A DNA stretch of 32,125 bases from an endosymbiont of Lamellibrachia barhami (GTDB lineage Bacteria > Pseudomonadota > Gammaproteobacteria > Chromatiales > Chromatiaceae), in NCBI RefSeq assembly GCF_011947365.2, contig NZ_JAAVSH020000001.1, forward strand, positions 3,101,504-3,133,628, in the 5' to 3' direction. The position numbers and the translations under genes are program-made. Below the pieces are notes generated by a model. It made no database searches. It saw nothing but the letters and a program-made list of their open reading frames with translations, and was not told the origin of the DNA. Shown here piece after piece: positions 2,578-27,367 of the stretch (positions within the stretch are counted from its first letter, which is position 1; each line of letters opens with the position of its first letter).

Positions 2578-2612
2578 TATAGGCCGAAACGAAAAACTGT
2601 AGGAGAGTGACG

Positions 2613-4121: not shown

Positions 4122-4157
4122 TCGCGGATACTTGTTGTAGCTGGAACCCTTCACTCC

Positions 4158-9198: not shown

Positions 9199-9582
9199 AT
9201 GGGCAATCCAGCAGCGAGAATGGGGGATAATGTCATCCAGCAGGCCCCCCATTGTCACGCCCCGATTCACCCCCCAGCACCGGTTCCCACCCCGGTACCC
9301 CATCCTCCGCTGCCTCTGGCGATCGTTAAGGGCGAGCCGACCGTGTTGATCGGAGGCATGCCAGCGGCTCGGGTGACCGATATGACCGCTCCCTGCGCCC
9401 TCCCCGGCTGCGTCCCCAACGGCCCCGGCATGGTTGCGATGGGTTCTTTTACCGTGCTTATCGGCAACCTGCCGGCGGCACGCATGGGAGACATGACCGC
9501 TCATCCGGGGTGTGTGGCACCCATCCCCAGTCCGGTGGGCAAGATTCTGCCGCCTGGATGCCCAACTGTCCTGATCGGCTAA
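9199..9582 (+). CDS. PAAR-domain protein, copy 2 (T6SS spike tip)
   Basis: The protein has 127 residues and is identical to copy 1 except N3, V43 and M62. The same motifs are present (PAARMGD near the N-terminus, MPAARVTD, LPAARMGD) together with TVLIGG repeats. The first half of the gene differs from copy 1 at many silent positions, while the second half is almost identical in DNA. That pattern suggests local gene conversion. It is followed after 13 bases by the full-length methyltransferase, so this pair is the intact version of the PAAR-methyltransferase unit. Confidence 0.9.
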   Translation: MGNPAARMGDNVIQQAPHCHAPIHPPAPVPTPVPHPPLPLAIVKGEPTVLIGGMPAARVTDMTAPCALPGCVPNGPGMVAMGSFTVLIGNLPAARMGDMTAHPGCVAPIPSPVGKILPPGCPTVLIG

Positions 9583-9595
9583 GGCGGGTTAAGCA

Positions 9596-10923: not shown

Positions 10924-11367
10924 CTACGGAAGCTGCATCGCGTTGGGCGTAAAACTGCGAAATATCATATCGAACAGTGGGTCGGTTGCAGCTTGGTTGG
11001 AGGCCAGGGAGATCGCCGTCAGCTTGTAAAGATGGACGGTTTCACCGCACTGCAATATGAGCAACTGTTTCTGCCGCACCCGCGCAGGACCCTCACCCCA
11101 TTCACAACTGCTCATGATACCGTCACAACCCGATCGCTGGCCTGCTGCCTGGCTGATAAGTTGAAACGCCTCGACCTTCTCACTCAGGGCTTCCATCTCC
11201 TGATCAGCAACGACCTTGAGATCCGGCCCATCAGACCGCTTCTCCACCCGGATCGTCATATAGGGTGAATCATTGCCCTTTGCCGGAAACGCGAAGGTAT
11301 AGACCGAGGCATCGATACACTGCTCCGGCAGTTCGACGGCAAATCCGGAGCCCTGAAACTTGGGCAT
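10924..11367 (-). CDS. DUF1795/DcrB-fold protein, EagR-type T6SS chaperone candidate
   Basis: This is a 147-residue protein without a signal peptide. Its start is preceded by AGGAGGGAG. The pattern (FAVELPEQCIDASVYTFAFPA, then MTIRVEKR, DQEMEALSEKVEAFQLI, QKQLLILQCGETVHLYKLTAIS, and FDMIFRSF at the end) fits the DUF1795 fold. In T6SS loci this fold includes EagR/EagT6 chaperones that hold the membrane segments of PAAR or Rhs effectors before loading on VgrG. It is encoded 81 bases after the TssB-TssC fusion gene on the same strand. Known EagR genes sit beside an effector with N-terminal membrane helices. None is seen here, since the PAAR proteins lack them, so its client is unknown. Confidence 0.7.
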   Translation of the reverse strand: MPKFQGSGFAVELPEQCIDASVYTFAFPAKGNDSPYMTIRVEKRSDGPDLKVVADQEMEALSEKVEAFQLISQAAGQRSGCDGIMSSCEWGEGPARVRQKQLLILQCGETVHLYKLTAISLASNQAATDPLFDMIFRSFTPNAMQLP

Positions 11368-11448: not shown

Positions 11449-12966
11449 TCATCGCCACACTCCCGCCAGATTAACCGGCGGCAAAGCCAATGACTGAAAC
11501 CGCATCACCCTGACCATATTGCGAGTGCGGTGGCTGAGCAGCGGCATGACGCCCTGTTTGAGCATCACCTCCCCTGCACGCTCGCTGATCCATGCCTCGG
11601 CGCAGGGCAGCATCTGCCGTTCGCCGTCGACTTCAAAGGTGAAGGCCGGAAGATCCTCGATATCGAGGCGGTCACCGGGCTCCATGGCCCAGCCTCGTTT
11701 GGTGAAGGCTTCCGCCAACAGTTGGGCACAGGCAAAGGCCGGGCCACCCCAAAGATAGTCTTCATGATCCCCCGGCTGTAGTGGGATCTCTTCGAAGGCA
11801 AAGCTGTCGATCTCCTCACTCCCCTTGCCGTAGGGCAGCCGCATCAAAGGTCGCGGCAGGGCCACGCCGAGCCAACGGGCCGCAGGAGTCTGACGCAACG
11901 TCTGCCAACGCTGTGCCGCATCCCCGTCTAATCCAGTCCACTTCTCCACCGGCTCGGTGATAGCATCACAACCGAGCAGTTGTGGTAAAGCGGTGGCGAG
12001 AAAAGGGCCACCCGCCTGAGAACCCAGCAGCCCCATTGCGTGGAGCGCGGAGACATCCTCTTCTCCCGCGCCGAAGACAAAGTCACCCGCCAGCACAGAC
12101 CAGGGTTCGCCACCCGTGCTCCCCACCCCCTGTTCCACCAGCAGACGATAGAGCGACGATCCGGACGGGTTGTCCGACAAGGTAGTGATGTCGGCCACAA
12201 GCTCCGACTTTGTGATGTCGAGTGTGTAAAGCTTCAGAGTCTCATCTGTCTCCACGCCTGTGACCAGACGGTGTAATGCAAGCCAGGTGGCCTCCAGCGC
12301 CTGAAACCCGGGTGTGTGCAGCAGGCTTCGCATCTGTTCGCTGATGGCATCATCCACTGAGGCAACGTAAGCCGCCTGTTGAGGATCGGCATCGGGAACG
12401 ATATGCGCTGCGACAATACGCTGGATAAACTGTTCTATCCCTGCCTTGGGAGCATGCGCTCTTGCAGCCGGGCTGCTGGACTCACGGCCTAACAGGCGCT
12501 CGAACACGTCGCCTTGCGGCTCAGGGGTGGCAGAATCGCCGACTGTCTCTTCACTGGTTGATGTTACGTCGACGACTGAGGCTTCTCGCCGAAGTTCGGC
12601 AGCGGCGGCGGAGAATGTGTTTGCATCCAGTAACCTGCCACGCAGTTGACGCAATGTCTTGAAAAGATCGAGGCGCTGAAACAAGGCATCGGGATGAAAG
12701 TCTTCCAATTCACTGAAGGCAAGATCGATCCGGGTACTCTCTCCCTCACCAAGTGGAAGGCTCACACTCGGCGCATAGCGGGCCATCAGCTGTTCAAAAT
12801 TATCCACGTCCACCTGACGAACGGCACGTTCATCCAGTGGCCCCGCTTCCTCAGGATGGCCGCTGAAGTCACCCATCAACAAGATACGCATAACCGAAAC
12901 CGGTTTGCGTTGTGGCGTTGCGCCACCACCGCGAAGACCATACTCAAATTCCATGTGTGCAGCCAT
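11449..12966 (-). CDS. TssB-TssC fusion-like T6SS sheath protein
   Basis: The protein has 505 residues. Residues 1-120 resemble TssB: MEFEYGL, ILLMGDFSG, QVDVDNFEQLMARYAP and LAFSELEDFHPDALFQRLDLFKTL parallel the TssB at 17409-17936 (MGVMADLSG, DVDNFDDRLKSMKP, FESMDDFSPAAVARKVGAL). After a linker (about 125-165), residues 170-505 resemble TssC: ISEQMRSLLHTPGFQALEATWLALHRLV, GGEPWSVLAGDF, LGVALPRPLMRLPYG and VMPLLSHRTRN. It ends soon after this last block, so it lacks roughly the last 115-130 residues of the TssC encoded at 17940-19436. It is transcribed away from vgrG. A specialised sheath cap, nucleator or regulator is possible; it is unlikely to replace TssBC. Confidence 0.82.
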   Translation of the reverse strand: MAAHMEFEYGLRGGGATPQRKPVSVMRILLMGDFSGHPEEAGPLDERAVRQVDVDNFEQLMARYAPSVSLPLGEGESTRIDLAFSELEDFHPDALFQRLDLFKTLRQLRGRLLDANTFSAAAAELRREASVVDVTSTSEETVGDSATPEPQGDVFERLLGRESSSPAARAHAPKAGIEQFIQRIVAAHIVPDADPQQAAYVASVDDAISEQMRSLLHTPGFQALEATWLALHRLVTGVETDETLKLYTLDITKSELVADITTLSDNPSGSSLYRLLVEQGVGSTGGEPWSVLAGDFVFGAGEEDVSALHAMGLLGSQAGGPFLATALPQLLGCDAITEPVEKWTGLDGDAAQRWQTLRQTPAARWLGVALPRPLMRLPYGKGSEEIDSFAFEEIPLQPGDHEDYLWGGPAFACAQLLAEAFTKRGWAMEPGDRLDIEDLPAFTFEVDGERQMLPCAEAWISERAGEVMLKQGVMPLLSHRTRNMVRVMRFQSLALPPVNLAGVWR

Positions 12967-13114: not shown

Positions 13115-15205
13115 GTGCCTAAAATCACACAATCCACCAGGAGTGTGTCCGTATCCACCCCCCTCGGTGAGGATACGCTGGTATTCAAAAGCATGAGTGC
13201 CAGCGAGGGGATGAGCCAGCTCTTCGAGTACGAACTGGAATTGCTCAGCGAACAAGGCGACATCGACCTCAACGATATGTTGGGACAAAGCGTTACCGTT
13301 CGTCTGGAGACCAATACCCCGGCGGCCCGGGGGGGCAAGGATCGCTTTTTCAACGGACTGGTCAGCCGTTTCAGCTACGCGGGCACTCAAGACCGCTACC
13401 ACCTCTACCAGGCCACTCTGCGACCCTGGTTTTGGAACCTGACCCGAACGTCGAACTGCCGCATCTTTCAGGAGATGACCGTTCCCGATATCGTGGCCGA
13501 GGTTTTGCGAAAAAACGGCTTTTCCGATTTTGAATTCAGCCTCAGCAGTGGCCGGTACCGCACCTGGACATACTGCGTTCAGTACCGTGAAACCGACTTC
13601 AACTTCATCTGCCGCCTGTTGGAACAGGAGGGTATCTACTTCTATTTCCACCACCAGGATAACCAACACTTCCTCGCCATGACCGATTCGGTCAGCTCCC
13701 ACAACAGCGTGGGTGCCATCCCCTACTTTCCGCCCCAGGATAATATACGGCGTGAAGGTGAGATCATTAGCGAGTGGTATGTGGCCTCGGAGGTGCGTCC
13801 GGGCAAATTCGTTACCGACGATTTCAACTATGAGACACCGAGTACGGAACTGGAGGCACGCCTGGACAATCCGGAGAGCCATGCGGCCGCCGACGGGGAG
13901 ATCTACGACTATCCCGGGGAGTACAGCAAACCGAACGAAGGCGAGACCTACGCTCAGATCCGCCTGCAAGAGTTGCAGACTCCCCATATCGTCGCCGAGG
14001 CAACGAGTAACTGCCTCCGGGTCAGCGTAGGTGAGTTGTTCGATCTGGAGAATTTCCCCCGGGACGACCAGAACCGGGAGTATCTCATCACCTCTGTCAC
14101 CTACCAGATCAAGTCCGATGCCTATATCAGCGGTTCCGGCAGCACAGGCGAGAATTTCTACAGCTGCCAGTTCAGCTGCATCGACCGTACCCGCCAGTAT
14201 CGCGCCCCCCGACTGACGCCAAAACCCGTGGTGCAGGGGCCGCAGACCGCATTCGTGGTCGGACGAAAAGGTGAAGATATCGACACCGACAAACTGGGCC
14301 GGGTCAAGGTACAGTTCCACTGGGACCGGCAGGGCAAGATGGACGAAAAAAGTTCCTGCTGGGTTCGTGTCTCACAGAACTGGGCCGGCAAGAATTGGGG
14401 TGGGGTGTTTCTGCCGCGCATCGGGCAGGAGGTGATCGTTGACTTTCTCGAAGGCGATCCCGACCGGCCGATTATCACCGGCCGGGTCTACAACGGGGAG
14501 AATACGCCGCCTTATGCCCTGCCCGCCAACAAGACCCAGTCCGGCATCAAGAGCCGCAGTAGCAAAAAAGGCAGTGACGACAACTTCAACGAACTGCGCT
14601 TCGAGGACAAGAAAGGCGAGGAAGAGATCTATTTCCATGCGGAAAAAGACTTCACACGAATGGTGGAGAACGACGACACCCTGAACGTCGGCAACGATCA
14701 GACGCGCGAGATCCACAACAACCGGACTACCACCATCAAAGAGGGTGACGACCAACTGGAGATCGAAAAAGGTCATCGCAATACGCTGATCAGCGAGGGC
14801 AACGACACCCTCGAAATCAAGATGGGCAACCACGACATCATCGTTACTCAAGGCAATGACACCCTCTCCTTGGAACAGGGTGATATGAAGGTCAATATTG
14901 ATGTCGGCAAGCAGGTGGTCAAGGTCGCCGAAAACATCGAGATGAGCTCGGTCAACAGTTCGATCAAAATGGACGCCAGCACCTCTATCGAACTGTCGAC
15001 CAAAAAGTGCATCATTGAGGCATTGAGTTCGATCGAACTGAAGGTTGGCGGCAGCAGCATCAAGATTGAACCCGCAAAGGTCACGATAAAATCTCCGCAG
15101 ATCGCTATCAGCGCTGACGGCAAGCTCGATGTAAAGAGTCCCATGACCACGGTAACGGGAGATGGCATTCTGACCCTCAAGGGTGGGCTTACCAAGATCA
15201 ACTAG
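13115..15205 (+). CDS. vgrG: VgrG spike protein (TssI)
   Basis: The 696-residue protein starts at GTG with GGGAGAG seven bases upstream. The N-terminal gp27-like part (about 1-370) includes YCVQYRETDFNFICRLLEQEGIYFYF, a VgrG signature. An OB-fold follows near 390-465 (DKLGRVKVQFHWD, WAGKNWGGVFLPRIGQEVIVDFLEGDPDRP). From about 500 the gp5-like beta-helix shows short repeats (NDTLNVGNDQT, NDTLEIKMGNH, NDTLSLEQGD) and ends with a TVTGDGILTLKGG tail. There is no C-terminal effector domain, so it is a structural spike whose cargo would ride on PAAR or bind otherwise. It is divergent from the TssB-TssC fusion gene and followed by a small conserved gene ten bases or so later. Confidence 0.97.
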   Translation: MPKITQSTRSVSVSTPLGEDTLVFKSMSASEGMSQLFEYELELLSEQGDIDLNDMLGQSVTVRLETNTPAARGGKDRFFNGLVSRFSYAGTQDRYHLYQATLRPWFWNLTRTSNCRIFQEMTVPDIVAEVLRKNGFSDFEFSLSSGRYRTWTYCVQYRETDFNFICRLLEQEGIYFYFHHQDNQHFLAMTDSVSSHNSVGAIPYFPPQDNIRREGEIISEWYVASEVRPGKFVTDDFNYETPSTELEARLDNPESHAAADGEIYDYPGEYSKPNEGETYAQIRLQELQTPHIVAEATSNCLRVSVGELFDLENFPRDDQNREYLITSVTYQIKSDAYISGSGSTGENFYSCQFSCIDRTRQYRAPRLTPKPVVQGPQTAFVVGRKGEDIDTDKLGRVKVQFHWDRQGKMDEKSSCWVRVSQNWAGKNWGGVFLPRIGQEVIVDFLEGDPDRPIITGRVYNGENTPPYALPANKTQSGIKSRSSKKGSDDNFNELRFEDKKGEEEIYFHAEKDFTRMVENDDTLNVGNDQTREIHNNRTTTIKEGDDQLEIEKGHRNTLISEGNDTLEIKMGNHDIIVTQGNDTLSLEQGDMKVNIDVGKQVVKVAENIEMSSVNSSIKMDASTSIELSTKKCIIEALSSIELKVGGSSIKIEPAKVTIKSPQIAISADGKLDVKSPMTTVTGDGILTLKGGLTKIN

Positions 15206-15217
15206 GTCAGTGATGTG

Positions 15218-15799
15218 ATGGAAGAGATCAAACTGAACAAGATCAAAGTTGCTACCGCCAACGAGGTCTGTCTCCTTTTCGACCTGGATGAAGAGGCAGC
15301 GCCCCTGCTACAGGAGAACCAGACACCCGCCCAATTCCTGCAGATCCTGATGGAGCACGAACACCTGGCCGATGCCGCCCATTTTCTCGCTTTCGCCCTG
15401 CCCGAGCGTGAAGCCGTCTGGCTGGCCTGCCTTGTTGCTCACAGCGTGGTCGATGAATCAACCTCCGAGGCCGAGAACAAGGCCATCACCCAAGCCGAAC
15501 AGTGGGTCTACAAACCGACCGATGAACTGCGCCGAACCCTGATGGATATCGCAGAATCCGCCGGACTCGACACTCCCGCAGGTTTCGTCGCAGCCTCTGC
15601 TTTCTGGAGCGGTGACGTCATCGCCCACGCCGATCTGCCTCCGGTCCCACCCCCCGCCGGCATCACCGGCAAGATGGTCTGGGGGGCCATGATTTTGGCG
15701 GCGTACCATAAGACACCGGAACTGGCGAACGATAGATACCGCACTTACATCAGCCAGGGGATCGATATCGCCAATGGCGGCGACGGCAAGAACCTTTGA
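15218..15799 (+). CDS. Conserved T6SS-associated protein, possibly DUF6931-like
   Basis: This 193-residue soluble protein has no signal peptide or membrane helix. ATG at 15218 is chosen; GTG at 15215 is equally possible. The sequence is mainly helical (ADAAHFLAFALPEREAVWLACLVAHSVVD, then AITQAEQWVYKPTDELRRTLMDIAE). A Pro-rich turn and MVWGAMILAAYHK close the recognisable part. It recalls small proteins annotated DUF6931 near T6SS genes, but this cannot be confirmed by eye. Its place 12 bases after vgrG suggests co-transcription and a role in VgrG or effector handling. The function is unknown. Confidence 0.7.
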   Translation: MEEIKLNKIKVATANEVCLLFDLDEEAAPLLQENQTPAQFLQILMEHEHLADAAHFLAFALPEREAVWLACLVAHSVVDESTSEAENKAITQAEQWVYKPTDELRRTLMDIAESAGLDTPAGFVAASAFWSGDVIAHADLPPVPPPAGITGKMVWGAMILAAYHKTPELANDRYRTYISQGIDIANGGDGKNL

Positions 15800-16290
15800 T
15801 AGTGAGCTTTAGTGAACGGATTAATCCCCTGATCAGTAAGGAGACAAGGACATTTTTATATCTTATTACCCCTACCACTCAGCGACTAGAGGGAAAGAGA
15901 TTTGCCTGCGAACAACGCAAAAAGCGCAAATGCATTAATTTTGTATGAAAACCTGATGGTTAATCATCTGCATCGGCCGGTTCAATGATGACAGAATAGG
16001 GCCTATTGGACGGATGCAATGACTTAATGCGTCAGGAAAAATCGCGTTATTTGCCGATTGAAAAACACTCTCCGATCATGGCTGAATTTTAGGGGTAATC
16101 AGGTTTTTATATGACATCCATCAGGCAATATGCAGCTTTTTCCGGGAAGAATTTATTTTCTTTCCCCGTTCATTGCAGGGGTCTGTAGAGTGTGCTAATA
16201 AAAGAGTATGCAAGACAATAAATTTGCCGGATTTTGTATAAGAAAATCAGGGTAGTCTACAATCCTAGATAGATTGGATTGCGGCAATGG
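15800..16290. other. AT-rich intergenic region upstream of the T6SS core operon
   Basis: About 490 bases hold no convincing gene on either strand. The region is visibly richer in A and T than its flanks. A ten-base inverted pair, ATTACCCCTA at 15865-15874 and TAGGGGTAAT at 16090-16099, lies 215 bases apart, and TTTTTATAT occurs near both copies. It is the natural place for the promoter and regulator sites of tssA-tssG. Confidence 0.6.
16234..16263 (+). promoter_or_regulatory. Candidate sigma-70-type promoter of the T6SS operon
   Basis: TACAAT at 16258-16263 is a good -10 box. TTGTAT at 16234-16239 is a weak -35 box, 18 bases away. The predicted transcript would begin about 20 bases before tssA. 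No convincing sigma-54 (GG-N10-GC) site was seen. Confidence 0.3.
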
Positions 16291-17346
16291 ATGGGGACGC
16301 CGGTGACAAGTGTGATCGATGTAGAGAGCATCCTGCAAGAGATATCGGCTGACAGCCCTTGCGGTGAAGACATGGAGTACGATCCCGCCTTCATTGAGCT
16401 GGTACAGCTGGCTGTCGGCCGGGCAGAGCAACAGATCGGGGATACGCTCGTAGAGGCGGAAGAACCCAACTGGGAGGCCATGCAAAACACCTCCCTGGAA
16501 CTCCTTTCCCGCACCAAAGACATCCGCATCCTCATCTATCTCATCCGTGCAGTTCTCCATACCGAAGGTTATAACGGCGCGGCCAAAGGCATCAAACTCC
16601 TGCATGGCCTGGTCGAACAAAACTGGGAACAGATTCATCCTCAACTCGACGCAGAGGACAACAATGATCCCACCATGCGTATCAATGCGATCAGTGCGCT
16701 GACCGACCGTACTGCCATGCTGACCCCCTTGAGCAAGGCGCCTCTGGTTAGTTCCCGAATGTTAGGGCAGTTCAGCCTGCGGGATTACGCCATCGCCAAC
16801 GGCGAACTTGAGCCGTTGAATGAAACCGACACGGTGGACATGGCCCAGATCAAAGCCGCCTTCATGGATGCCGATTTGGAGGAACTGCAGGCAACATTTG
16901 ACGCTGTGGCCGAATCCATCGATCACCTGACCGAACTCGAAGACTTCATCACGGAACAGGTCGGTGTAGCCAACGCCATCAGCCTTTCCGGCCTTGTAAA
17001 ATCATTCAAAGAGGCAAAACAGGTTCTGAACGGACAACTGCAAGCGCGTGGCGTCGGCTCTGCGGAAGAGACGAATTCATCCAACGAAGAAGGAGCGGCA
17101 ACCCCGGCTTCAGGCGCAGCCCCAGCGCTGAGCGGAAGCATCAACTCACGGGCGGACGTAACACGGGCTCTGGACAAAATCATCGATTACTACAGCCAGA
17201 ACGAACCCTCCAGTCCGATCCCTATCCTGATGGAGCGGGCAAAAAGGCTCGTCTCTCTCGATTTCCTGGAAATCATCAAAAATATGGCGCCGGATGCCAT
17301 GGATCAGGTGGATCTGATTCGCGGCCCGGACGAGGAAGAGGAGTAA
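16291..17346 (+). CDS. tssA: T6SS protein TssA (ImpA family)
   Basis: The protein has 351 residues from ATG 16291; TTG 16279 and GTG 16303 are alternative starts, none with a clear ribosome site. The ImpA N-terminal domain is evident: SPCGEDMEYDPAFIELVQLA, EEPNWEAMQNTSLELLSRTKDIRILIYLIRA and GLVEQNWEQIHPQLDAEDNNDPTMRINAISAL. The C-terminal part (about 285-345) has SRADVTRALDKIIDYYSQNEPSSPIPILMERAKRLV, as in TssA. TssA sits at the baseplate and guides tail-tube and sheath polymerisation. The gene is first in an operon with tssB 62 bases downstream, as in HSI-I (PA0082). Confidence 0.95.
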   Translation: MGTPVTSVIDVESILQEISADSPCGEDMEYDPAFIELVQLAVGRAEQQIGDTLVEAEEPNWEAMQNTSLELLSRTKDIRILIYLIRAVLHTEGYNGAAKGIKLLHGLVEQNWEQIHPQLDAEDNNDPTMRINAISALTDRTAMLTPLSKAPLVSSRMLGQFSLRDYAIANGELEPLNETDTVDMAQIKAAFMDADLEELQATFDAVAESIDHLTELEDFITEQVGVANAISLSGLVKSFKEAKQVLNGQLQARGVGSAEETNSSNEEGAATPASGAAPALSGSINSRADVTRALDKIIDYYSQNEPSSPIPILMERAKRLVSLDFLEIIKNMAPDAMDQVDLIRGPDEEEE

Positions 17347-17408: not shown

Positions 17409-17936
17409 GTGGTCCAGAGCAGTCAGAAATTCATAGCCAAGAATCGCGCACCGCGCGTTCAAATAGAATATGACGTAGAGGTTTACGGTGCCGAAAAGAA
17501 GGTGCAGCTTCCCTTCATCATGGGCGTCATGGCAGATCTCTCAGGCAAACCCGCAGAGGCCCTGCCCCCGGTTTCTGAGCGCAAGATGCTGGAGATCGAT
17601 GTCGACAACTTCGACGATCGTCTCAAGTCGATGAAACCCCGTGCAGCCTTCCAGGTGCCCAACACCCTCACTGGCGAAGGCAGCCTCAGTGTGGATCTCA
17701 CCTTTGAGAGCATGGATGATTTCTCTCCCGCGGCTGTGGCGCGCAAGGTGGGCGCTCTGAACGAGCTGCTGCAGGCACGCACCCAACTCGCCAACCTGAT
17801 GACTTACATGGACGGAAAGGCCGGCGCCGAGGAACTCATCTCCAAGGCCCTGAACGATCCCACCCTGCTGCAATCCCTGGCCTCGGCACCAAAGCCTGGG
17901 GACGATGAATCAGCGGCAGAGGAAGAGGAGGGTTAG
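17409..17936 (+). CDS. tssB: T6SS sheath small subunit TssB
   Basis: This is a 175-residue protein with a GTG start and GGAGGT five bases upstream. Canonical TssB (VipA/ImpB) features are FIAKNRAPRVQIEYDVE at the N-terminus, LPFIMGVMADLSG, EIDVDNFDDRLKSMKPR and the LNELLQARTQLANLM helix. It ends with an acidic tail. TssB pairs with TssC to build the contractile sheath in the cytoplasm; its helix is also the contact for TagJ in HSI-I-type systems. The end of the gene carries the AGGAGG ribosome site of tssC. Confidence 0.97.
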   Translation: MVQSSQKFIAKNRAPRVQIEYDVEVYGAEKKVQLPFIMGVMADLSGKPAEALPPVSERKMLEIDVDNFDDRLKSMKPRAAFQVPNTLTGEGSLSVDLTFESMDDFSPAAVARKVGALNELLQARTQLANLMTYMDGKAGAEELISKALNDPTLLQSLASAPKPGDDESAAEEEEG

Positions 17937-17939
17937 ACC

Positions 17940-19436
17940 ATGGCAGAGCTGGAAAAAGACGTCCAGGCGCAAGCGGAAGCAACAACCCTGGAAGCCGGTG
18001 ATTTCGCGTCACTGCTGAATCAGGAGATCCGCCCGAAATCGGACCGCGCCCGCGAGGAAGTGGAGAATGCCGTACAAACCCTGGCGGAGCAGGCCATCGC
18101 CGCCTCCGTCACAGTGTCGGCTGATGTCACAGTCACCATTCGGGAGATGATCGCCGAGATCGACAAACGCCTCACCGAACAGGTCAACCAGATCCTGCAC
18201 AATGAGGATTTTCAGAAACTCGAAGGCGCCTGGCGCGGCCTGCACCATCTGGTCAACAACACAGAAACTGACGAGATGCTCAAGATCCGGGTCATGAGCA
18301 TCTCGAAGAAAGATCTGCACAAGACCCTGAAGAAGTTCAAGGGCACCGCCTGGGACCAGAGCCCCATCTTCAAGAAGCTCTATGAAGAAGAGTTCGGCCA
18401 GTTTGGCGGGGAACCCTACGGCTGTCTGGTGGGTGATTACCACTTCGACCAGAGCGCTCCCGACGTGGAGTTATTGGGTGAGATGTCCAAGGTCGCCGCC
18501 GCAATTCATGCACCCTTCATCGCCGGCGCTGCACCCACCACCATGCAGATGGACTCCTGGCAGGAACTGAGCAACCCTCGTGACCTGACCAAGATCTTTC
18601 AGACCCCGGAATATGCGGCCTGGAACTCCCTGCGAGAATCCGATGATGCCAAGTACATCGGCCTTGCCATGCCCCGTTTCCTCTCCCGGATGCCGTACGG
18701 TGCCAAGACCGACCCGGTGGACGAGTTCGATTTTGAGGAAGAAACCGGCAACGCCGACCACGATAAGTACACTTGGGCCAATGCCGCCTACGCCATGGCA
18801 GTCAACATCAACCGTTCTTTCAAGATGTACGGCTGGTGCTCCCGCATCCGTGGCATCGAGTCCGGCGGCGCGGTGGAAGGCCTGCCGGCACACAGCTTCC
18901 CCACCGACGACGGCGGGGTGGACATGAAGTGTCCCACGGAGATCGCCATCAGCGACCGGCGGGAGGCAGAACTGGCCAAGAACGGCTTTATGCCGCTGGT
19001 GCACAAGAAAAACACCGACTTCGCCGCCTTCATCGGCGCCCAGTCATTCCAGAAACCTGCGGAATACGATGATCCCGATGCCACCGCCAACGCAAATCTG
19101 GCGGCCCGCCTGCCCTACCTGTTCGCCACCTGCCGCTTCGCGCACTACCTGAAGTGCATCGTGCGTGACAAGGTCGGCTCATTCAAAGAGCGGGAGGAGA
19201 TGCAGCGTTGGTTGCAGGACTGGATCCTGCAGTACGTGGACGGGGATCCGGCCCACTCTTCCGAGACCACCAAGGCGGAACAGCCGTTGGCAGCAGCGGA
19301 AGTGGTGGTTGAAGAGGTGGAGGGAGATCCGGGGTACTACACCTCGAAGTTCTTCCTGCGTCCCCACTATCAACTTGAAGGCCTGACGGTTTCGCTACGC
19401 CTGGTATCGAAGCTGCCATCGGCTAAAGCAGGGTAA
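17940..19436 (+). CDS. tssC: T6SS sheath large subunit TssC
   Basis: The protein has 498 residues, starting three bases after the tssB stop, with AGGAGG eight bases upstream. Canonical TssC (VipB/EvpB) blocks are ILHNEDFQKLEGAWRGLHHLV, GGEPYGCLVGDYHFD, LAMPRFLSRMPYG, FMPLVHKKNTDFAAFIGAQS and LPYLFATCRFAHYLK. The C-terminal part (GYYTSKFFLRPHYQLEGL and on) supplies the strand that links neighbouring sheath subunits and is complete here. TssC forms the sheath with TssB, and ClpV disassembles it after contraction. Confidence 0.97.
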   Translation: MAELEKDVQAQAEATTLEAGDFASLLNQEIRPKSDRAREEVENAVQTLAEQAIAASVTVSADVTVTIREMIAEIDKRLTEQVNQILHNEDFQKLEGAWRGLHHLVNNTETDEMLKIRVMSISKKDLHKTLKKFKGTAWDQSPIFKKLYEEEFGQFGGEPYGCLVGDYHFDQSAPDVELLGEMSKVAAAIHAPFIAGAAPTTMQMDSWQELSNPRDLTKIFQTPEYAAWNSLRESDDAKYIGLAMPRFLSRMPYGAKTDPVDEFDFEEETGNADHDKYTWANAAYAMAVNINRSFKMYGWCSRIRGIESGGAVEGLPAHSFPTDDGGVDMKCPTEIAISDRREAELAKNGFMPLVHKKNTDFAAFIGAQSFQKPAEYDDPDATANANLAARLPYLFATCRFAHYLKCIVRDKVGSFKEREEMQRWLQDWILQYVDGDPAHSSETTKAEQPLAAAEVVVEEVEGDPGYYTSKFFLRPHYQLEGLTVSLRLVSKLPSAKAG

Positions 19437-19529: not shown

Positions 19530-20021
19530 ATGGCTGTTGACATGTTTATCAAGATTGGCGATATCAAAGGTGAAGCGCAAGACAAAACGCACAAAGAAGA
19601 GATCGACGTTCTGGCATGGAGTTGGGGCATGAGTCAGTCCGGCACCATGCATACGGGCGGCGGTGGCGGTGGCGGTAAGGTGTCAGTGCAGGATCTGTCA
19701 TTGACAAAATATGTGGATAAGTCCACACCGAATCTCTACAAATATTGCGCTTCAGGTGAGCAATTCGACGAGGCCAAATTGACCGTGCGCAAGGCCGGTG
19801 GCAAGGCCCCTTTGGAGTACGTCATCATCACCATGAAAGAGGTGATTGTTACCTCGGTGTCCGCAGGTGGCAGCGGCGGCGAAGACCGGCTGACCGAAAA
19901 CATCACATTGAATTTCGCGGAGGTAAAGTACGAATATCAACCGCAGGATCAGAAGGGTGCCAAAGACGGCGGCCTGCTCAAGTTTGAAATGGATATCGCA
20001 AAAAATGATGTGAAAAAGTGA
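19530..20021 (+). CDS. hcp: T6SS tube protein Hcp (TssD)
   Basis: The 163-residue protein has a very strong ribosome site (AAGGAGAG, five bases before ATG), in line with the high output needed for the inner tube. It shows the Hcp pattern: MFIKIGDIKGEAQDKTHKEEIDVLAWSWGMSQ, a Gly-rich loop, SLTKYVDKSTPNLYKYCASGEQF, and a C-terminal ITLNFAEVKYEYQPQD strand. Hcp hexamers stack into the tube inside the sheath, and some effectors ride in their lumen. There is no C-terminal effector extension. Confidence 0.97.
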   Translation: MAVDMFIKIGDIKGEAQDKTHKEEIDVLAWSWGMSQSGTMHTGGGGGGGKVSVQDLSLTKYVDKSTPNLYKYCASGEQFDEAKLTVRKAGGKAPLEYVIITMKEVIVTSVSAGGSGGEDRLTENITLNFAEVKYEYQPQDQKGAKDGGLLKFEMDIAKNDVKK

Positions 20022-20139
20022 CGGATCTCCGTCGATGGCTATATGGGATGGCCCCGCGAACGGGTGGGGCTGTCCTCTCCTGTCATCCTGAAGGCGGTGA
20101 ACCACTACACCCCTTCGCTGAATTGATCGGGGTGTGAAT

Positions 20140-20967
20140 ATGTTGGCGCAACAATCCCTGCGCGATGGGAATCTCGACGAGGCTCTGGCACAACTCCAGG
20201 ACCAGGTGCGCAAAGCCCCCGCCAAGGCCGAATACCGGACCTTCCTGTTTCAACTGCTTTCGGTCATGGGCAGTTGGGAGCGGGCGCTCAACCAACTGAG
20301 TGTGGTGGCCGACCTGGATGACGGCACCCTGGCCATGGTGCAGACCTACCGCGAGGCGATCCGTTGCGAGGCATTACGGGAAGATATCTTCGCCGGCAAG
20401 CGCTCTCCCCTGCTGTTCGGCGAGCCTCCAGAATGGGTGGCCCTTTTGATCGAAGCCCTGCGCCTCGGTGCGGAGGGCAACCTCACCGAGTCCCAGGCTC
20501 TACGAAACCAGGCCTTCGAGGCGGCCCCCGCTATCAGTGGCACCCTCGACGGCCAGCCCTTCGAATGGATCGCCGATGCGGACCCCCGCCTCGGCCCCGT
20601 CCTCGAAGCGGTGGTCAACGGGCACTACTACTGGGTGCCGATGCAGCAGATCCGCCACATCAACATCGAGGAACCCGAGGACCTGCGTGATCTGGTCTGG
20701 ATGCCCGCTTACTTCACCTGGGCCAACGGCGGTGAAGCGGCAGGGCTGATCCCCACCCGCTATCCCGGCTCGTTTGCCAGCCAAGACCCGCAGATTCAAC
20801 TGAGCCGCAAAACCGAGTGGGTTGACGCCGGCTCAGATCTCTATCTGGGTTTGGGACAGCGTATGCTGACCACCGACTGCGGTGAATTTCCCTTGATGAA
20901 TATTCGCGAGATCAACCTCGATACAGCGGAAGAGTCCGCAGAACAAACTGCTGAAGAAGGAACCTGA
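20140..20967 (+). CDS. tagJ: T6SS accessory protein TagJ (ImpE family)
   Basis: The protein has 275 residues; ATG 20140 is preferred over GTG 20134 because GGGG at 20129-20132 is then well spaced. An N-terminal TPR-like region (SLRDGNLDEALAQLQDQVRKAPAKAEYRTFLFQLL) precedes the ImpE/SciE part (LFGEPPEWVALLIEALRL, PFEWIADADPRLGPVLEAVVNGHYYWVPMQQIRHI, GLIPTRYPGS, DCGEFPLMNIREI). In HSI-I the TagJ protein binds ClpV and the TssB helix and modulates sheath recycling; it marks the subtype with this gene order. It lies between hcp and tssE, as PA0086 does. Confidence 0.92.
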   Translation: MLAQQSLRDGNLDEALAQLQDQVRKAPAKAEYRTFLFQLLSVMGSWERALNQLSVVADLDDGTLAMVQTYREAIRCEALREDIFAGKRSPLLFGEPPEWVALLIEALRLGAEGNLTESQALRNQAFEAAPAISGTLDGQPFEWIADADPRLGPVLEAVVNGHYYWVPMQQIRHINIEEPEDLRDLVWMPAYFTWANGGEAAGLIPTRYPGSFASQDPQIQLSRKTEWVDAGSDLYLGLGQRMLTTDCGEFPLMNIREINLDTAEESAEQTAEEGT

Positions 20968-20982
20968 TGGGTTCGACAAGCC

Positions 20983-21498
20983 TTGGCTGAACTCACCCAA
21001 AAAGAGCGCCTGCAGCCCTCCCTGCTGGATCGGCTGACCGACGACCACCCGGACAAAAAGAACGAGTCCCGTGATCAGCGGGTACTCTCGATCCAAAAAC
21101 TCCGAAAGAGCGTGCTACGGGATCTGGAGTGGTTGCTCAACACAGTAAACCTGAGCACCATGCAGAACCTGGATGAGTACCCGGAAGCTGAACGTTCGGT
21201 ACTCAACTATGGGGTCCCGGACTTTGCCGGCCACACGGCCTCCAGCGTCGATGTACCCGCATTGGAGAGATTGTTACGTCAGGCAATCATCGACTTCGAA
21301 CCCCGCCTACTCAAGAATAGCGTCAGGGTCAAACTTCAGATTGCCGAGAGCCACATGAGCCACAATGCCATGACCTTCGATATCGAAGCCGAACTATGGG
21401 CTGAACCCGTACCGCTGCACATGTACATGAAGACAGAGATCGACCTGGAGGCCGGCAACGTCACCATCTCCGACTATTCCGGCGGAGGCAGGGGCTGA
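20983..21498 (+). CDS. tssE: T6SS baseplate protein TssE (gp25-like)
   Basis: The 171-residue protein starts at TTG 20983. An in-frame TGA at 20965 excludes any ATG or GTG upstream, and the N-terminus AELTQKERLQPSLLDRLTDD fits TssE well. The gp25-like core is RVLSIQKLRKSVLRDLEWLLNT, LNYGVPDFAG and IIDFEPRLLKNSVRV with the conserved EPRL. TssE joins the baseplate wedge with TssF, TssG and TssK. Its stop overlaps the tssF start (TGATG), indicating coupled translation. Confidence 0.95.
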   Translation: MAELTQKERLQPSLLDRLTDDHPDKKNESRDQRVLSIQKLRKSVLRDLEWLLNTVNLSTMQNLDEYPEAERSVLNYGVPDFAGHTASSVDVPALERLLRQAIIDFEPRLLKNSVRVKLQIAESHMSHNAMTFDIEAELWAEPVPLHMYMKTEIDLEAGNVTISDYSGGGRG

Positions 21499-23366
21499 TG
21501 GATCCACGGTTGCTGCAATACTACAACCGGGAATTGCAGTTCATCCGTGAGATGGGCGGCGAATTCGCCAAGGAGTTTCCCAAGATCGCCGGTCGGCTCG
21601 GGCTTGAAGGTTTCGAGTGCGCCGACCCTTATGTGGAACGCCTGCTTGAAGGTTTCGCCTTTTTGGCAGGACGTATCCAGCTCAAACTCGACGCCGAATT
21701 TCCCCGTTTCACCCAACACCTGCTGGAAGCGGTCTACCCCCACTACCTTTCGCCAACGCCTTCTATGACAGTCGTCCGGTTTCAGCCCGACCTTATGGAG
21801 GGGGGACTGGCGGACGGTTTCACCCTGCCCCCGAACAGCGCCATGCGCAGCCTGATGGGAGTACACGACCAGACCGCCTGTGAATATCGTACCGCCAGGG
21901 AGACGGTCCTCTGGCCGCTGGAGATGACCGACGCCACCTATCTGCGCTCTCTTGCCGGCATCGGTTTGCCCGACCTGCCGGAAGCCAAGGCGGGCATTCG
22001 ACTGCGCTTGCGAGTCACCGCAGGACTCAGCTGCGACAAGCTGGCTCTGGAAAGTCTGCCACTCTATCTGCAGGGCGCGGACGAACTCCCCATGCACCTC
22101 TACGAGCAGATCCTGGGCAACGCAGTGGCGGTGGTAGCGCGCCCCACCAGTCGTCCCGCACCCTGGCAGGAAGTGATGGATCGGCAATCGATCAAACAGA
22201 TAGGCTTTGACGACAGCGAGGCTCTGCTGCCTTTCACCGACCGCTCCTTCGAAGGCTACCGTCTGCTGCACGAATACTTCGCCTTTCCGGCACGTTTCAT
22301 GTTTGTCGAACTGACCGGCCTGGCACCCGCTTTCAAACGCTGTCCACACGATGAGATCGAACTGATCATCCTGCTCAACCGCAGTGATGCCTATCTGGAA
22401 AAGGTGGTCAACGCAGACAATTTCGTCCTCTTCTGCACACCGGCGGTCAACCTCTTTCCCAAGCAGTGCGACCGCATCCACCTGACCCACAAAGAACACG
22501 AACACCATCTGGTGCCGGACCGGACCCGCCCATTGGACTACGAGGTCTATTCAGTCACCGGCGTCACCGGCTACGGTGTCGGCACCAAAGCGGAGCAGGA
22601 GTTCCTGCCGTTTTACGCCTCCCACGACCTGGCGGCACAACAGACCGACGAGGGATTTTTTACGCTGAGACGTGATCCACGAGTCATCTCCTCCCGTCAA
22701 CGGCGCAACGGGCCGCGTTCGAGTTACATCGGCAGCGAGGTATTCCTCTCACTGGTGGATGCAAAAGAGGCGCCCTACCACCCGGACCTGCGGCAGTTGG
22801 GCATCTCCATCCTCTGCACCAACCGGGATCTCCCGCTGCAGATGCCGGTGGGCAAAGGCGCCACCGACTTCACCCTGGAGAGCGGCGGGCCGTTCGAAAG
22901 CGTGCGGGTGGTTGCCGGCCCCACCCGCCCCAGACCCTCCTGGGCGGAGGGCGACACCACCTGGCGGCTGGTCAGCCACCTGTCGCTCAACTACCTCTCG
23001 CTGATCGACAACGACGAGGCCCAGGGTGCGGCGGCCCTGCGGGAGTTGATGAGCCTTTACAGCAACGTCGCTGAAGCACCCGTGCGCAAGCAGATCGGCG
23101 GCGTCAAGAGCATCACCTCAAAACCCATCATCCGCCGTGTTCCAATACCCGGGCCAATCGCCTTCGGCCGCGGCCTGGAGATCACCCTGATCCTGAACGA
23201 GGACGAATTCGAAGGCACCGGCGTATTCCTGTTGGGCGCGATTATGGAACGGTTTTTTGACCGCTATGTCTCTCTCAACTCATTCACCCAAACCGTCATC
23301 CGCACCACGGATCGCGGGGAGATCATGCGATGGCCGTTACGCACCGGACAGCAACACTTGCTCTAG
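21498..23366 (+). CDS. tssF: T6SS baseplate protein TssF
   Basis: The 622-residue protein has the TssF (VasA/ImpG) N-terminal block DPRLLQYYNRELQFIREMGGEFAKEFPKIAGRL, followed by DPYVERLLEGFAFLAGRIQLKLDAEFPRF and YPHYLSPTPSM. Later marks are HEYFAFPARFMFVEL, CTPAVNLFP and the C-terminal ITLILNEDEFEGTGVFLLGAIMERFFDRYVSLNSFTQ. It overlaps tssE by one base at its start and tssG by 37 bases at its end. Two TssF and one TssG form the wedge around the spike. Length and motifs are complete. Confidence 0.97.
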   Translation: MDPRLLQYYNRELQFIREMGGEFAKEFPKIAGRLGLEGFECADPYVERLLEGFAFLAGRIQLKLDAEFPRFTQHLLEAVYPHYLSPTPSMTVVRFQPDLMEGGLADGFTLPPNSAMRSLMGVHDQTACEYRTARETVLWPLEMTDATYLRSLAGIGLPDLPEAKAGIRLRLRVTAGLSCDKLALESLPLYLQGADELPMHLYEQILGNAVAVVARPTSRPAPWQEVMDRQSIKQIGFDDSEALLPFTDRSFEGYRLLHEYFAFPARFMFVELTGLAPAFKRCPHDEIELIILLNRSDAYLEKVVNADNFVLFCTPAVNLFPKQCDRIHLTHKEHEHHLVPDRTRPLDYEVYSVTGVTGYGVGTKAEQEFLPFYASHDLAAQQTDEGFFTLRRDPRVISSRQRRNGPRSSYIGSEVFLSLVDAKEAPYHPDLRQLGISILCTNRDLPLQMPVGKGATDFTLESGGPFESVRVVAGPTRPRPSWAEGDTTWRLVSHLSLNYLSLIDNDEAQGAAALRELMSLYSNVAEAPVRKQIGGVKSITSKPIIRRVPIPGPIAFGRGLEITLILNEDEFEGTGVFLLGAIMERFFDRYVSLNSFTQTVIRTTDRGEIMRWPLRTGQQHLL

Positions 23367-24358
23367 CGCTGGAACAGAGCCTCAGCCAGAAGCCGTATAC
23401 CTACGACTTCTACTGGGCCATGCGGGCGTTCGAAGCTTACCATCCTGGCAATCCCCGGTTCGGCGAGTCCCTGCGCCCCGCAGACGATGCGATCCGGCTG
23501 GGAGAGGAGGCATCTCTGGCGTTCGCTCCCTCCAGCATCTCCGGCTTCACCCCCGGCAAGGAGGGTCGGCACCCACGCATGGAGGTGCTGTTCTTCGGCC
23601 TGTTCGGACCCAACGCGCCCCTCCCACTGCACCTGACAGAATACGCCAGAGATCGGATACGCAATGCGGACGATCCCACCTTCAGCCGTTTCACCGACCT
23701 GTTTCATCACCGCTTTCTTTCGCTCTTCTACCGTGCCTGGGCCAACGCCCAGCCAGCGGTCAGCCATGATCGACCTGAGCAGGACCGTTTTGCCACCTAC
23801 ATGGGCGCCACCTGCGGTTACGGCATGCCGTCGCTTCGCGAGCGGGACGAAATGCCCGACTTGGCCAAGCTGCACTACTCGGGCTGGATCTCCAACCAAG
23901 TCCACAACGCCGATGGTCTGCAGTCGATTCTGGCTGGGTTTTTCCAGTTGCAGGTATCCATCGAGCAGTTCGTGGGACACTGGATGACCCTGCCGAAAGA
24001 TACCCGCTGCCGATTAGGTGAGTCCCCGGAGACCGGCACCCTCGGTCTGACTGCCGTCATCGGCGCCCAAGTGTGGGATTGTCAGCATAAGTTCCGCATC
24101 GTATTGGGGCCGCTCGAACTTGAGGACTACCGGCGTATGTTGCCCGGTGGAGAGAGTTTCAAACGTCTGACAGCCATTGTGAAGAACTACATCGGCGACG
24201 AATTGCACTGGGACCTGAACCTCATCCTGAAAAAGGAGCAGGTACCGCCAATCCGATTGGGCACAGAGGGAGAGTTGGGCTGGACCACCTGGTTGAGCCA
24301 TAAGCCGCCCGCAGATGACCCGCGTGACCTGATGCTCAACCCCTTTTTCAAGCCGTGA
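23330..24358 (+). CDS. tssG: T6SS baseplate protein TssG
   Basis: The 342-residue protein has the typical TssG (VasB/ImpH) marks: YDFYWAMRAFEAYHPGNPRFG, LFGPNAPLPLHLTEYARDR, FLSLFYRAWANAQPAV, a central FFQLQVSIEQFVGHW and the end block LGTEGELGWTTWLS. It begins inside the tssF 3' end, with GGGGAG before its ATG. It is the last gene before a 252-base gap that holds a palindromic repeat. Confidence 0.96.
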   Translation: MAVTHRTATLALALEQSLSQKPYTYDFYWAMRAFEAYHPGNPRFGESLRPADDAIRLGEEASLAFAPSSISGFTPGKEGRHPRMEVLFFGLFGPNAPLPLHLTEYARDRIRNADDPTFSRFTDLFHHRFLSLFYRAWANAQPAVSHDRPEQDRFATYMGATCGYGMPSLRERDEMPDLAKLHYSGWISNQVHNADGLQSILAGFFQLQVSIEQFVGHWMTLPKDTRCRLGESPETGTLGLTAVIGAQVWDCQHKFRIVLGPLELEDYRRMLPGGESFKRLTAIVKNYIGDELHWDLNLILKKEQVPPIRLGTEGELGWTTWLSHKPPADDPRDLMLNPFFKP

Positions 24359-24523: not shown

Positions 24524-24610
24524 TCAGTTCAGTGGCAGCGCGTGCATATCGTTCCTTGAACATTTGTGTGGATACAAGATCATCAGGAAAACAACAAAGG
24601 GGATATCAGG

Positions 24611-27367
24611 ATGTCTGAAATCAGTCGCACCGCCCTGTTCGGCAAACTCAACAGCGTCGGTTACAAGTCCATCGAAAGCGCCACAGTCTTCTGCAAGATG
24701 CGGGGCAACCCCTACGTGGAACTGGTGCACTGGATTCACCAGATTTTGCAACTGAAAGACTCCGACCTTCACCACATCATCAAGTATTTCAGCCTGGATC
24801 CCTCTCACTTGGTCAGGGACATCACCGAAATCCTGGACAGCCTGCCTCGCGGTTCCACCTCCATCTCCGACCTCTCCGCACACATCGAGGAAGCAGTGGA
24901 ACGGGGCTGGCTCTACGGCACGCTGATGTTCGGAGAATCCCAGGTGCGCACGGGTCATCTGGTGGTCGGCATCCTCAAGACCCGTAGCCTCACGCACGCT
25001 CTGAGCAGCATCTCCAAAGAGTTCCAGAAGCTCAAATTGGAGACCCTCACCGACCGATTCGACGAAGTGGTAGGCGACTCCCCTGAAGCGACCCTGCACG
25101 CCACGGACGGCTTCCAGGTGGGTGGCGGCGTTGCCCCCGGTGAGGCCAGCGGCGCCATCGCCCCGGCTCAGATGGGCAAGCAGGAGGCGCTAAACCAGTT
25201 CACCGTGGACCTCACCGCCGAGGCGGCATCCGGCAAGATGGATCCGATCGTCGGCCGCGACGAGGAGATACGCCAGATCATTGATATCCTCATGCGACGA
25301 CGCCAGAACAACCCAATCCTCACCGGTGAGGCTGGAGTGGGCAAGACCGCCGTGGTTGAAGGCTTCGCCCAGCACATTGCCGCTGGCGACGTTCCCCCCC
25401 CGCTGCAGAACGTCACCCTGCGCTCCCTGGACGTAGGTCTGTTACAGGCCGGCGCCAGCATGAAAGGTGAGTTTGAAAACCGCCTGAAACAGGTAATCGA
25501 AGAGGTACAGTCTTCTGAAAAACCGATCATCCTCTTCATCGACGAGGCCCACACCCTGGTGGGCGCCGGCGGCGCAGCTGGTACCGGCGATGCGGCCAAT
25601 CTGCTGAAACCGGCTCTGGCTCGCGGCACCCTGCGCACGGTGGCGGCCACCACCTGGGCCGAGTACAAGAAATACATCGAAAAAGATCCCGCCCTCACCC
25701 GCCGTTTTCAGGTGGTCCAGATAGACGAGCCATCGGAGGAGAAGGCCATCCTCATGATGCGGGGCATGGCAAGCACCATGGAGCACCACCACAAGGTGCA
25801 ACTGCTGGACGAGGCCCTGGAGGCATCGGTCAAACTCTCCCACCGTTACATCCCGGCGCGCCAACTGCCCGACAAGTCAGTGAGCCTGCTCGACACCGCC
25901 TGTGCCCGGGTGGCCATCAGCCAGTACGCAGTGCCTGCGGAGGTGGACGATTCGCGTAAGCGCATCCAGGCCCTGAAAACCGAACTCGAAATCATCGGAC
26001 GGGAGAAAAACGTCGGTATCGACACCACCGTACGGGAAACGGAGGCCAATGAGTCTCTGGCAGCAGAGGAAAAACGGCTGGAAGACCTGGACGAACGCTG
26101 GAACAACGAAAAAACACTGGTCGAACAGATCCTCGACATCCGGGGAAAACTACGGGCCACCACCCGCAAGGTGGAAGGTACCGACAGTGATTTAGAGAGA
26201 GCGGCGGATGCCGCAGCAGAAGATATCTCTGTCGAAGACACGACAGGCAGAGACGAAGAGGCCCTCTCCGACGAGGAACGTCAGGCGTTACTGACACGGC
26301 TGAAGGGACTGCAAAACGAACTCCACGAACTTCAGGGAGAGCATCCCCTCATCCTGCCCTCAGTGGACGGGCAAGCCGTCGCCTCGGTGGTTCAGGACTG
26401 GACAGGCATCCCCGTGGGCCGCATGGTCAAGAATGAGATAGAGACTATTCTTCATCTGGCAGACGCCCTGGAGCAGCGTATCATCGGCCAGCGCCACGCC
26501 CTGGAGATGATCACCCGCCGCATCCAGACCTCCCGCGCCAGCCTCGACAATCCGAACAAACCTATCGGTGTCTTCATGCTGGCAGGCACCTCCGGCGTAG
26601 GTAAGACTGAAACCGCCCTGGCCCTGGCCGAAACCCTCTATGGCGGTGAACAGAATATCATCACCATCAACATGAGCGAATACCAGGAGGCCCATACCGT
26701 ATCCACACTCAAGGGTGCCCCTCCCGGTTATGTCGGTTATGGCGAAGGTGGTGTGCTTACCGAAGCGGTGCGCCGCCGCCCCTACAGCGTGGTGCTGCTG
26801 GACGAGGTGGAGAAGGCCCACCCTGACGTGCACGAAATCTTCTTCCAGGTCTTCGACAAGGGATGGATGGAGGACGGCGAAGGCCGGGTGATCGACTTCA
26901 AGAACACCCTCATCCTGCTCACCACCAACGCCGGCACCGACCTGATTACCAATCTGTGTGCTGACCCGGAGCTGATGCCGGAACCCGAAGGCATCGCCAA
27001 GGCCCTGCGCGAACCACTGCTCAAGATCTTCCCGCCCGCCCTGCTCGGCCGTCTGGTGGTTATCCCCTTCTACCCGCTCAGCGACGAGGTGATCGGACTT
27101 ATCGCCAAACTGCAGCTTGGGCGCATTGAAAAACGCATCCGCGAGAATCACAAAATCCCCTTCAGCTACGACGACGACGTGATCAAACTCATCACCGACC
27201 GCTGTACCGAACTGGAGAGCGGCGGGCGCATGATCGATACGATCTTAACCAATACTGTGCTACCCACCATCAGCGAGGAATTGCTCAAGCGGATGATGGA
27301 AGCCAAGCCTATCGAACGGGTACATGTTGGCGTTGAGGGGGGTGAGTTTAGTTATGGGTTTGAGTAG
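24611..27367 (+). CDS. tssH: T6SS sheath-recycling ATPase TssH (ClpV)
   Basis: The protein has 918 residues. ATG 24611 with AAGGGG eight bases upstream is preferred to GTG 24566. The N-terminal ClpV domain (1-160) is followed by two AAA+ modules. Walker A is GEAGVGKT at 239-246 and GTSGVGKT at 659-666; Walker B motifs are ILFIDEAHTL and VVLLDEVEKAHPDV. A coiled middle region (about 430-560) is longer and more acidic than in plain ClpB, as in ClpV proteins. It ends with GGRMIDTILTNTVLP. ClpV pulls TssC out of contracted sheaths. The position after tssG matches clpV1 in HSI-I. Confidence 0.97.
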   Translation: MSEISRTALFGKLNSVGYKSIESATVFCKMRGNPYVELVHWIHQILQLKDSDLHHIIKYFSLDPSHLVRDITEILDSLPRGSTSISDLSAHIEEAVERGWLYGTLMFGESQVRTGHLVVGILKTRSLTHALSSISKEFQKLKLETLTDRFDEVVGDSPEATLHATDGFQVGGGVAPGEASGAIAPAQMGKQEALNQFTVDLTAEAASGKMDPIVGRDEEIRQIIDILMRRRQNNPILTGEAGVGKTAVVEGFAQHIAAGDVPPPLQNVTLRSLDVGLLQAGASMKGEFENRLKQVIEEVQSSEKPIILFIDEAHTLVGAGGAAGTGDAANLLKPALARGTLRTVAATTWAEYKKYIEKDPALTRRFQVVQIDEPSEEKAILMMRGMASTMEHHHKVQLLDEALEASVKLSHRYIPARQLPDKSVSLLDTACARVAISQYAVPAEVDDSRKRIQALKTELEIIGREKNVGIDTTVRETEANESLAAEEKRLEDLDERWNNEKTLVEQILDIRGKLRATTRKVEGTDSDLERAADAAAEDISVEDTTGRDEEALSDEERQALLTRLKGLQNELHELQGEHPLILPSVDGQAVASVVQDWTGIPVGRMVKNEIETILHLADALEQRIIGQRHALEMITRRIQTSRASLDNPNKPIGVFMLAGTSGVGKTETALALAETLYGGEQNIITINMSEYQEAHTVSTLKGAPPGYVGYGEGGVLTEAVRRRPYSVVLLDEVEKAHPDVHEIFFQVFDKGWMEDGEGRVIDFKNTLILLTTNAGTDLITNLCADPELMPEPEGIAKALREPLLKIFPPALLGRLVVIPFYPLSDEVIGLIAKLQLGRIEKRIRENHKIPFSYDDDVIKLITDRCTELESGGRMIDTILTNTVLPTISEELLKRMMEAKPIERVHVGVEGGEFSYGFE

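Follow-up and report, generated by a model that had tools for sequence, protein, structure and literature searches.

What could a type VI secretion system (T6SS) gene cluster do with a protein that joins a TssB-like and a TssC-like sheath half in one chain, when the normal tssB and tssC genes lie beside it? The question is raised by a 32,125-nucleotide stretch from an endosymbiont of Lamellibrachia barhami (contig NZ_JAAVSH020000001.1, positions 3,101,504 to 3,133,628), hereafter the window, in whose numbering positions are given. The gene that encodes this protein, here called the fusion, its parts and the normal sheath genes of the same locus are as follows.

11449..12966, minus strand: tssB'-tssC' fusion gene, 505 amino acids (aa), ATG start, single frame (open reading frame, Pfam/NCBIfam profiles, structure model)
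12586..12891, minus strand: TssB/VipA-like half, residues 26-127 (PF05591, T6SS_VipA, E 3.9e-16, profile positions 28-135 of 155)
12493..12507, minus strand: FERLL segment, residues 154-158, at the position of the near-N-terminal FASLL of the window's TssC (motif comparison; helix 154-158 in the model)
11491..12369, minus strand: TssC/VipB-like half, residues 200-492 (PF05943, VipB, E 6e-60, profile positions 3-299 of 301)
11452..11502, minus strand: C-terminal tail RFQS...LAGxW, where TssC domain 1 would begin (alignment)
17409..17936, plus strand: normal tssB (PF05591, E 1.6e-58)
17940..19436, plus strand: normal tssC, with VipB and VipB_2 (Pfam, NCBIfam)
19080..19415, plus strand: VipB_2, the gp25-like domain of the normal TssC, residues 381-492, which the fusion lacks (PF18945, E 1.8e-43)

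A reading of the DNA without database searches (the sequence-only reading) had described two sheath-like halves in one protein, normal tssB and tssC at the same locus, and a TssC-like half ending about 115-130 residues early, and all three points were borne out. Beyond the shared alignment point, 44 residues follow in the fusion and 160 in the window TssC, leaving approximately 116 missing, and a Pfam search of the 505-aa frame found no VipB_2 (PF18945), the C-terminal domain of TssC that corresponds to domain 1. The fusion has the VipB domain in common with TssC and the PF05591 domain in common with TssB/VipA, but it differs from TssC in its fused TssB half and missing PF18945, and it falls below both NCBIfam equivalog cut-offs (208.4 vs 271.5 bits for TIGR03355, TssC; 58.7 vs 97.25 bits for TIGR03358, TssB), and so cannot be classed simply as TssB or as TssC. 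By inspection, the segment reported to bind TagJ in HsiB1, which precedes the first strand, is also missing from it (PMC4239648). It can be aligned with TssC chains in the PDB, ending before their C-terminal part, and in an AlphaFold model, predicted as a single chain, the two halves are packed together like a single sheath protomer, whose end lies at the point where the inter-ring domain would begin. The single-chain sheaths of R pyocin, AFP and PVC differ in continuing into a C-terminal part that is unmatched by the fusion model.

Is this architecture peculiar to the window? A scan of genome contigs gave 48 loci, of which 47 hold fusions or fusion pieces and one (L043) is a normal tssB-tssC pair. 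Full-length near-copies, 91% (L003) and 88% (L004) identical, come from tubeworm-symbiont records, and by the taxonomy of the loci, most of which are from metagenome-assembled genomes, homologs occur in seven phyla: Pseudomonadota (alpha, beta and gamma classes), Acidobacteriota, Planctomycetota, Gemmatimonadota, Lentisphaerota, Myxococcota, and Thermodesulfobacteriota. Non-pathogenic carriers in culture include Massilia sp. Root351, Paraglaciecola arctica and Leisingera methylohalidivorans, the last from a genus with the tethered form described below. In an alignment of 34 unsplit full-length members chosen from the 47 loci, VipB and T6SS_VipA were each found in 34/34 and VipB_2 in 0/34 at E 0.01. 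The fusion is thus real and no local artefact, a possibility that the sequence-only reading had left standing, because there are near copies, same-genus copies and homologs of the same fused architecture across phyla, all of the aligned ones among them, and the TssB and TssC profiles both match.

The missing C-terminus is likewise a trait of the family. Past a common reference point, 44 of 46 fusions (41 from the scan and the window, plus five others) have 36-49 residues, compared with 157-172 in seven TssC/ImpD rows; the remaining two (L081 and L083) end in acidic tails, and a third such tail is found in L141. These three proteins end in a common motif of the type E/D-M/L-D-x-E-L-A-A-L-L-x-x-L, a pattern that matched only their frames in the scanned set of open reading frames. 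The consensus C-terminus of the aligned members is RFQSxAxPxxxLxGxW, and a G/I-x-W ending is present in 10/16 profile-found members. We withdrew ELEDFHPD as an invariant signature of the family, as the string had been the search seed and is exact in 0/16 profile-found members; the looser [LI][DE]D[FL]HPD occurs in 13/16.

To ask how often the fusion arose, we built quick maximum-likelihood trees. In that of the TssC half (46 fusions, 41 TssC, nine ImpD-like; no bootstrap, several fusion branches long), the fusions form one side of a branch with a Shimodaira-Hasegawa-like approximate likelihood ratio test (SH-aLRT) support of 100, and in that of the TssB half, 48 fusion halves are split from 16 TssB with support of 100. 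The simplest reading of these topologies would be a single old origin of the fusion family. The window and a Polarisedimenticolaceae member (L005) are mutual nearest neighbors by fusion and by TssC, and the Brocadia member (L010) groups with the deltaproteobacterial L009 and L014 in fusion and TssC alike, suggesting that some fusion-TssC pairs travel together across phyla. A second TssC homolog in a T6SS cluster is also known as ImpD/TssC40 (Atu4340 in Agrobacterium), which is needed for Hcp secretion in A. tumefaciens (PMC3702570). Identity of the fusion with ImpD/TssC40 was rejected, as the Rhizobium ImpD (L084) has the C-terminal domain, has no TssB half, and groups with eight gammaproteobacterial second-TssC rows in a separate clade (9/9).

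Could the gene then be a decaying or functionless duplicate? Pairwise ratios of nonsynonymous to synonymous substitution (dN/dS, Nei-Gojobori, window genome and three same-genus genomes, six pairs per gene) are 0.17-0.25 for the fusion, 0.01-0.04 for TssC, and 0.01-0.06 for TssB. The faster evolution relative to TssC and the split frames in L022, L041, L042, L044, and L049 would be expected of such a duplicate, but the ratios lie well below 1 and a single architecture is common across phyla, and we consider decay very improbable indeed. Judged from these ratios, the fusion is under purifying selection, far looser than that on the lattice subunits; looser constraint of this kind would suit a part that is peripheral or present in few copies.

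A protein of related design has been described in roseobacters. TssCL, reported in 2022, combines two VipA domains and one VipB domain (1,684 aa in the example given), and the account in PMC9515649 presents it as undetected outside Alphaproteobacteria and likely recent. Ten loci of this form, out of 21 matched records, were read here; the tenth, in Parasedimentitalea (L160), is broken, and the nine intact genes (eight Leisingera, one Phaeobacter, plasmid-borne) each form one open frame of 1328-1690 aa, in the order near-canonical TssB, acidic linker of 547-914 aa (~1% Lys/Arg), fusion, and acidic tail. In the eight Leisingera genes the linker measures 703-914 aa. In L081 (16492-20949) and in L152-L159, the annotated coding sequence starts downstream of the TssB part and misses it. 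The window fusion resembles TssCL in that a single chain carries VipA-like and VipB domains and the gene has a normal tssB and a normal tssC nearby, and the Phaeobacter module (L159) falls inside the same fusion clade, with 46/46 fusions on one side of the branch; L159 represents the roseobacter branch in this tree, which does not include the Leisingera frame L081 because the script had not classed that frame as a fusion. Unlike TssCL, the window protein is a bare 505-aa core with one VipA match and has neither a second canonical VipA nor a long linker. Roseobacter TssCL is, on these trees, a derived branch of an older and wider fusion family, and the seven-phylum breadth corrects the published view of such fusions as a recent alphaproteobacterial event. 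The family is best regarded as a widespread, pared-down version of a protein type that is known but has scarcely been described; added here are its breadth and shared clade, the loss of domain 1 as a property of the family, a model that resembles a protomer, and a linker that varies in length.

What, then, might a sheath protomer of this shape do? Domain 1 of the P. aeruginosa sheath is built from beta11 and beta12 of TssC together with beta13 of a neighbor's TssC and beta1 of TssB; the strands that accept and the C-terminal strand that is donated both belong to it (PMC5807055). Each subunit is reported to extend two linkers into the adjacent ring on the baseplate side, with TssE proposed as the acceptor of the first-ring linkers (PMC5813253), and subunits are reported to be added solely at the distal end (PMC5511345). 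The fusion retains what makes up domains 2 and 3 and, as judged visually, an N-terminal strand resembling that of TssB, and it lacks both the acceptor and the C-terminal donor, leaving a sheath fold without a next-ring acceptor, a statement about fold and absence rather than binding. Of the earlier proposal that a C-terminal arm is missing, the truncation stands, and the loss is larger than an arm, as the acceptor strands are gone too. Given distal growth, linkers directed toward the baseplate, and no acceptor, the fusion could end a sheath but could hardly start one.

Our leading hypothesis, held tentatively and at somewhat less than even probability, is that the fusion docks on the distal growing end of the sheath and, having no acceptor, caps it. 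A fusion protomer would dock on the distal TssBC end, using the surfaces of domains 2 and 3 and the N-terminal strand of its TssB half; no acceptor sheet would be offered to the next ring, and addition would stop there. As a distal-end terminator, the fusion could set when and where elongation ends, and ClpV may clear it along with the contracted sheath. The sequence-only reading had suggested a cap, a length limiter or an initiator: the cap fits the geometry, whereas an initiator is unlikely for want of an acceptor for the next ring. It is doubtful, if conceivable, that this family supplies the tail terminator said to be missing from classical T6SSs and that, in roseobacters, a disordered linker of variable length (547-914 aa) tethers it to a canonical TssB in the manner of a tape measure made of sheath parts. 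An old and widespread sheath-derived protein that lacks exactly the inter-ring acceptor is a directly testable candidate.

A known protein with a comparable effect is TagA, which blocks sheath growth at the far membrane in E. coli and V. cholerae (PMC6745524, PMC6450956); it is an ImpA_N membrane protein unrelated to the fusion. Among 23 fusion genomes, ImpA_N was matched once in 22 and not in the other. The absence of TagA was rejected as a mark of these genomes: of 54 fusion-free TssC genomes, 35 have one ImpA_N match, three have two and 16 have none, so the count does not discriminate.

The fusion is present in at least 18 of 369 gammaproteobacterial genomes (two, G256 and G258, counted from contig-end pieces), a lower bound since no more than four candidates were scored in each genome, and VipB_2 is present in 71/369 of these genomes vs 17/18 fusion carriers (Fisher 1.9e-12). 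At 24/47 fusion loci a recognised T6SS gene lies in the fetched flank; 23/47 have none, some of them on short contigs. For these 23, 18 genomes were searched, and VipB_2 was found elsewhere in 16; of the two without it, one (G071) has TssF and two TssK matches and the other (G055) a TssK match alone. In the sampled genomes, the fusion is nearly always accompanied by a normal TssC. TagJ is present in 23/71 TssC-bearing gammaproteobacteria, and the fusion in 13/23 with TagJ vs 4/48 without; by these counts, the fusion is tied to the T6SS without being indispensable to it, and is commoner in systems with TagJ. The idea that its homologs always co-occur with tagJ was rejected, since 17/22 fusion genomes tested have the gene.

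The same geometry would also suit an antagonist that is no structural part of the sheath but, in soluble form, poisons its growth and so restrains the T6SS of the cell itself or of a competitor. The fusion is sometimes unlinked from tssC, as in G299, where the two lie 3.9 Mb apart on one 5.0-Mb contig (nearer if circular), but the adjoining T6SS genes at the 24 loci, spread over several phyla, make this highly improbable.

Several points weigh against a distal cap. The stop function is deduced from geometry alone, and no localisation, binding, deletion, or other functional study was found among open papers in PubMed Central. The fusion occurs in only 17/71 TssC-bearing gammaproteobacteria (a lower bound), and a sheath can therefore do without it. 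One gammaproteobacterial genome (G264, locus L135, ~290 contigs) has the fusion without matches to VipB_2, TssF, TssK, or ImpA_N, and a Phycisphaerales genome (G055, L006) has a TssK match without VipB_2 or TssF; both may reflect either assembly loss or a T6SS-independent role. The mirror-tree correlation between fusion and TssC is weak (Spearman 0.15, with 55/5000 permutations as high, 35 genome pairs). Finally, the gene adjoins vgrG in several loci, which also fits a role on the spike side.

This last point bears on a position-specific sheath adaptor at the baseplate, in which the fusion would form or join the first ring near TssE/VgrG. Some sheath paralogs of extracellular contractile injection systems act at the baseplate-side first ring, and structural matches of the fusion model include baseplate-state chains of these systems. 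In one neighborhood table vgrG is the immediate neighbor in 7/50 rows, and in a second in 6/20 rows (one row a duplicate, and the L148 row without a labelled fusion). We regard such an adaptor as unlikely.

The FERLL segment raises a further alternative, that the fusion offers ClpV an N-terminal motif of the TssC type and directs recycling, or retains contracted sheath pieces, with growth not ended. ClpV is reported to recognise LLDEII-type helices in one class of TssC, the EFASLL class being described as without that motif (PMC4239648). With patterns chosen after looking at the sequences (50 rows, with one genome appearing twice), the fusion and the same-genome TssC fall into one motif class in 21/22 rows classed on both sides (nine FxxLL and 12 LLDxII; mismatch in L020), or 19/20 after two near-duplicates are dropped. 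On the other hand, 28/50 rows are unclassed on one or both sides, and the match amounts to one independent pair on the tree, so that common descent explains the agreement, perhaps as mere co-inheritance. Co-evolution with the ClpV motif is kept as a lead only, and a disassembly-side factor is distinctly unlikely.

The surroundings of the gene bear on a last alternative. The window gene order is PAAR and CsgG genes, DcrB (minus), fusion (minus), vgrG, DUF6931, tssA, tssB, tssC, hcp, tagJ, tssE, tssF, tssG, and clpV, with 148 bp between the fusion and vgrG, whose divergence had been correctly described. The genes that surround the fusion and the sheath genes are as follows.

10924..11367, minus strand: DcrB-family gene, directly downstream of the fusion (PF08786, E 4.2e-8)
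13115..15205, plus strand: vgrG (tssI), divergent from the fusion (PF05954, E 8.1e-99)
15215..15799, plus strand: DUF6931 gene (PF22011, E 2.8e-46)
16279..17346, plus strand: tssA, 355 aa, sole Pfam match ImpA_N (PF06812, E 1.7e-32)
19530..20021, plus strand: hcp (PF05638)
20134..20967, plus strand: tagJ/impE (PF07024, E 2.4e-48)
20983..21498, plus strand: tssE (gp25; PF04965)
21498..23366, plus strand: tssF (PF05947 at G000:C1:3123001-3124857)
23330..24358, plus strand: tssG (clusters with RefSeq-annotated TssG)
24566..27367, plus strand: clpV/tssH (AAA domains; clusters with RefSeq TssH)

The DcrB-family neighbor and the single small enzyme-like neighbors in L009, L010, and L011 could point to a cargo- or spike-loading protein of a vgrG/effector module, built by chance from sheath domains. 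The neighbors elsewhere are mixed and ordinary (e.g., MnmE/MnmG, ParAB, and S7, or AhpC, CBS, and NUDIX), and nearly half of the fusion loci, as counted above, have no recognised T6SS gene in the flank, both of which argue against a loader, and we find it quite improbable. A rule of small effector-like neighbors was rejected, the neighbors at other loci being ordinary genes. The DcrB-family gene adjoins the fusion in L003 and L004 too, and lies farther downstream in L005.

The sole TssK match of the window genome (G000:C1:1606732-1608003) is 1.5 Mb from the window, which places the parts of this T6SS at distant loci. Within the window, the stretches 7395-8337 and 9199-10681 each hold a 127-aa PAAR gene, the two scoring almost equally in Pfam, with a related gene of cluster c17 behind it (methyltransferase matches in the full copy), which looks like a duplicated module. 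Farther downstream, an SNF2-type helicase is apparently split over two frames (28393-29616 and 29696-31177). Upstream of the T6SS cluster, a caspase-domain gene and a Ser/Thr kinase gene are present (2607-5957), and genes of both kinds adjoin the Leisingera cluster too.
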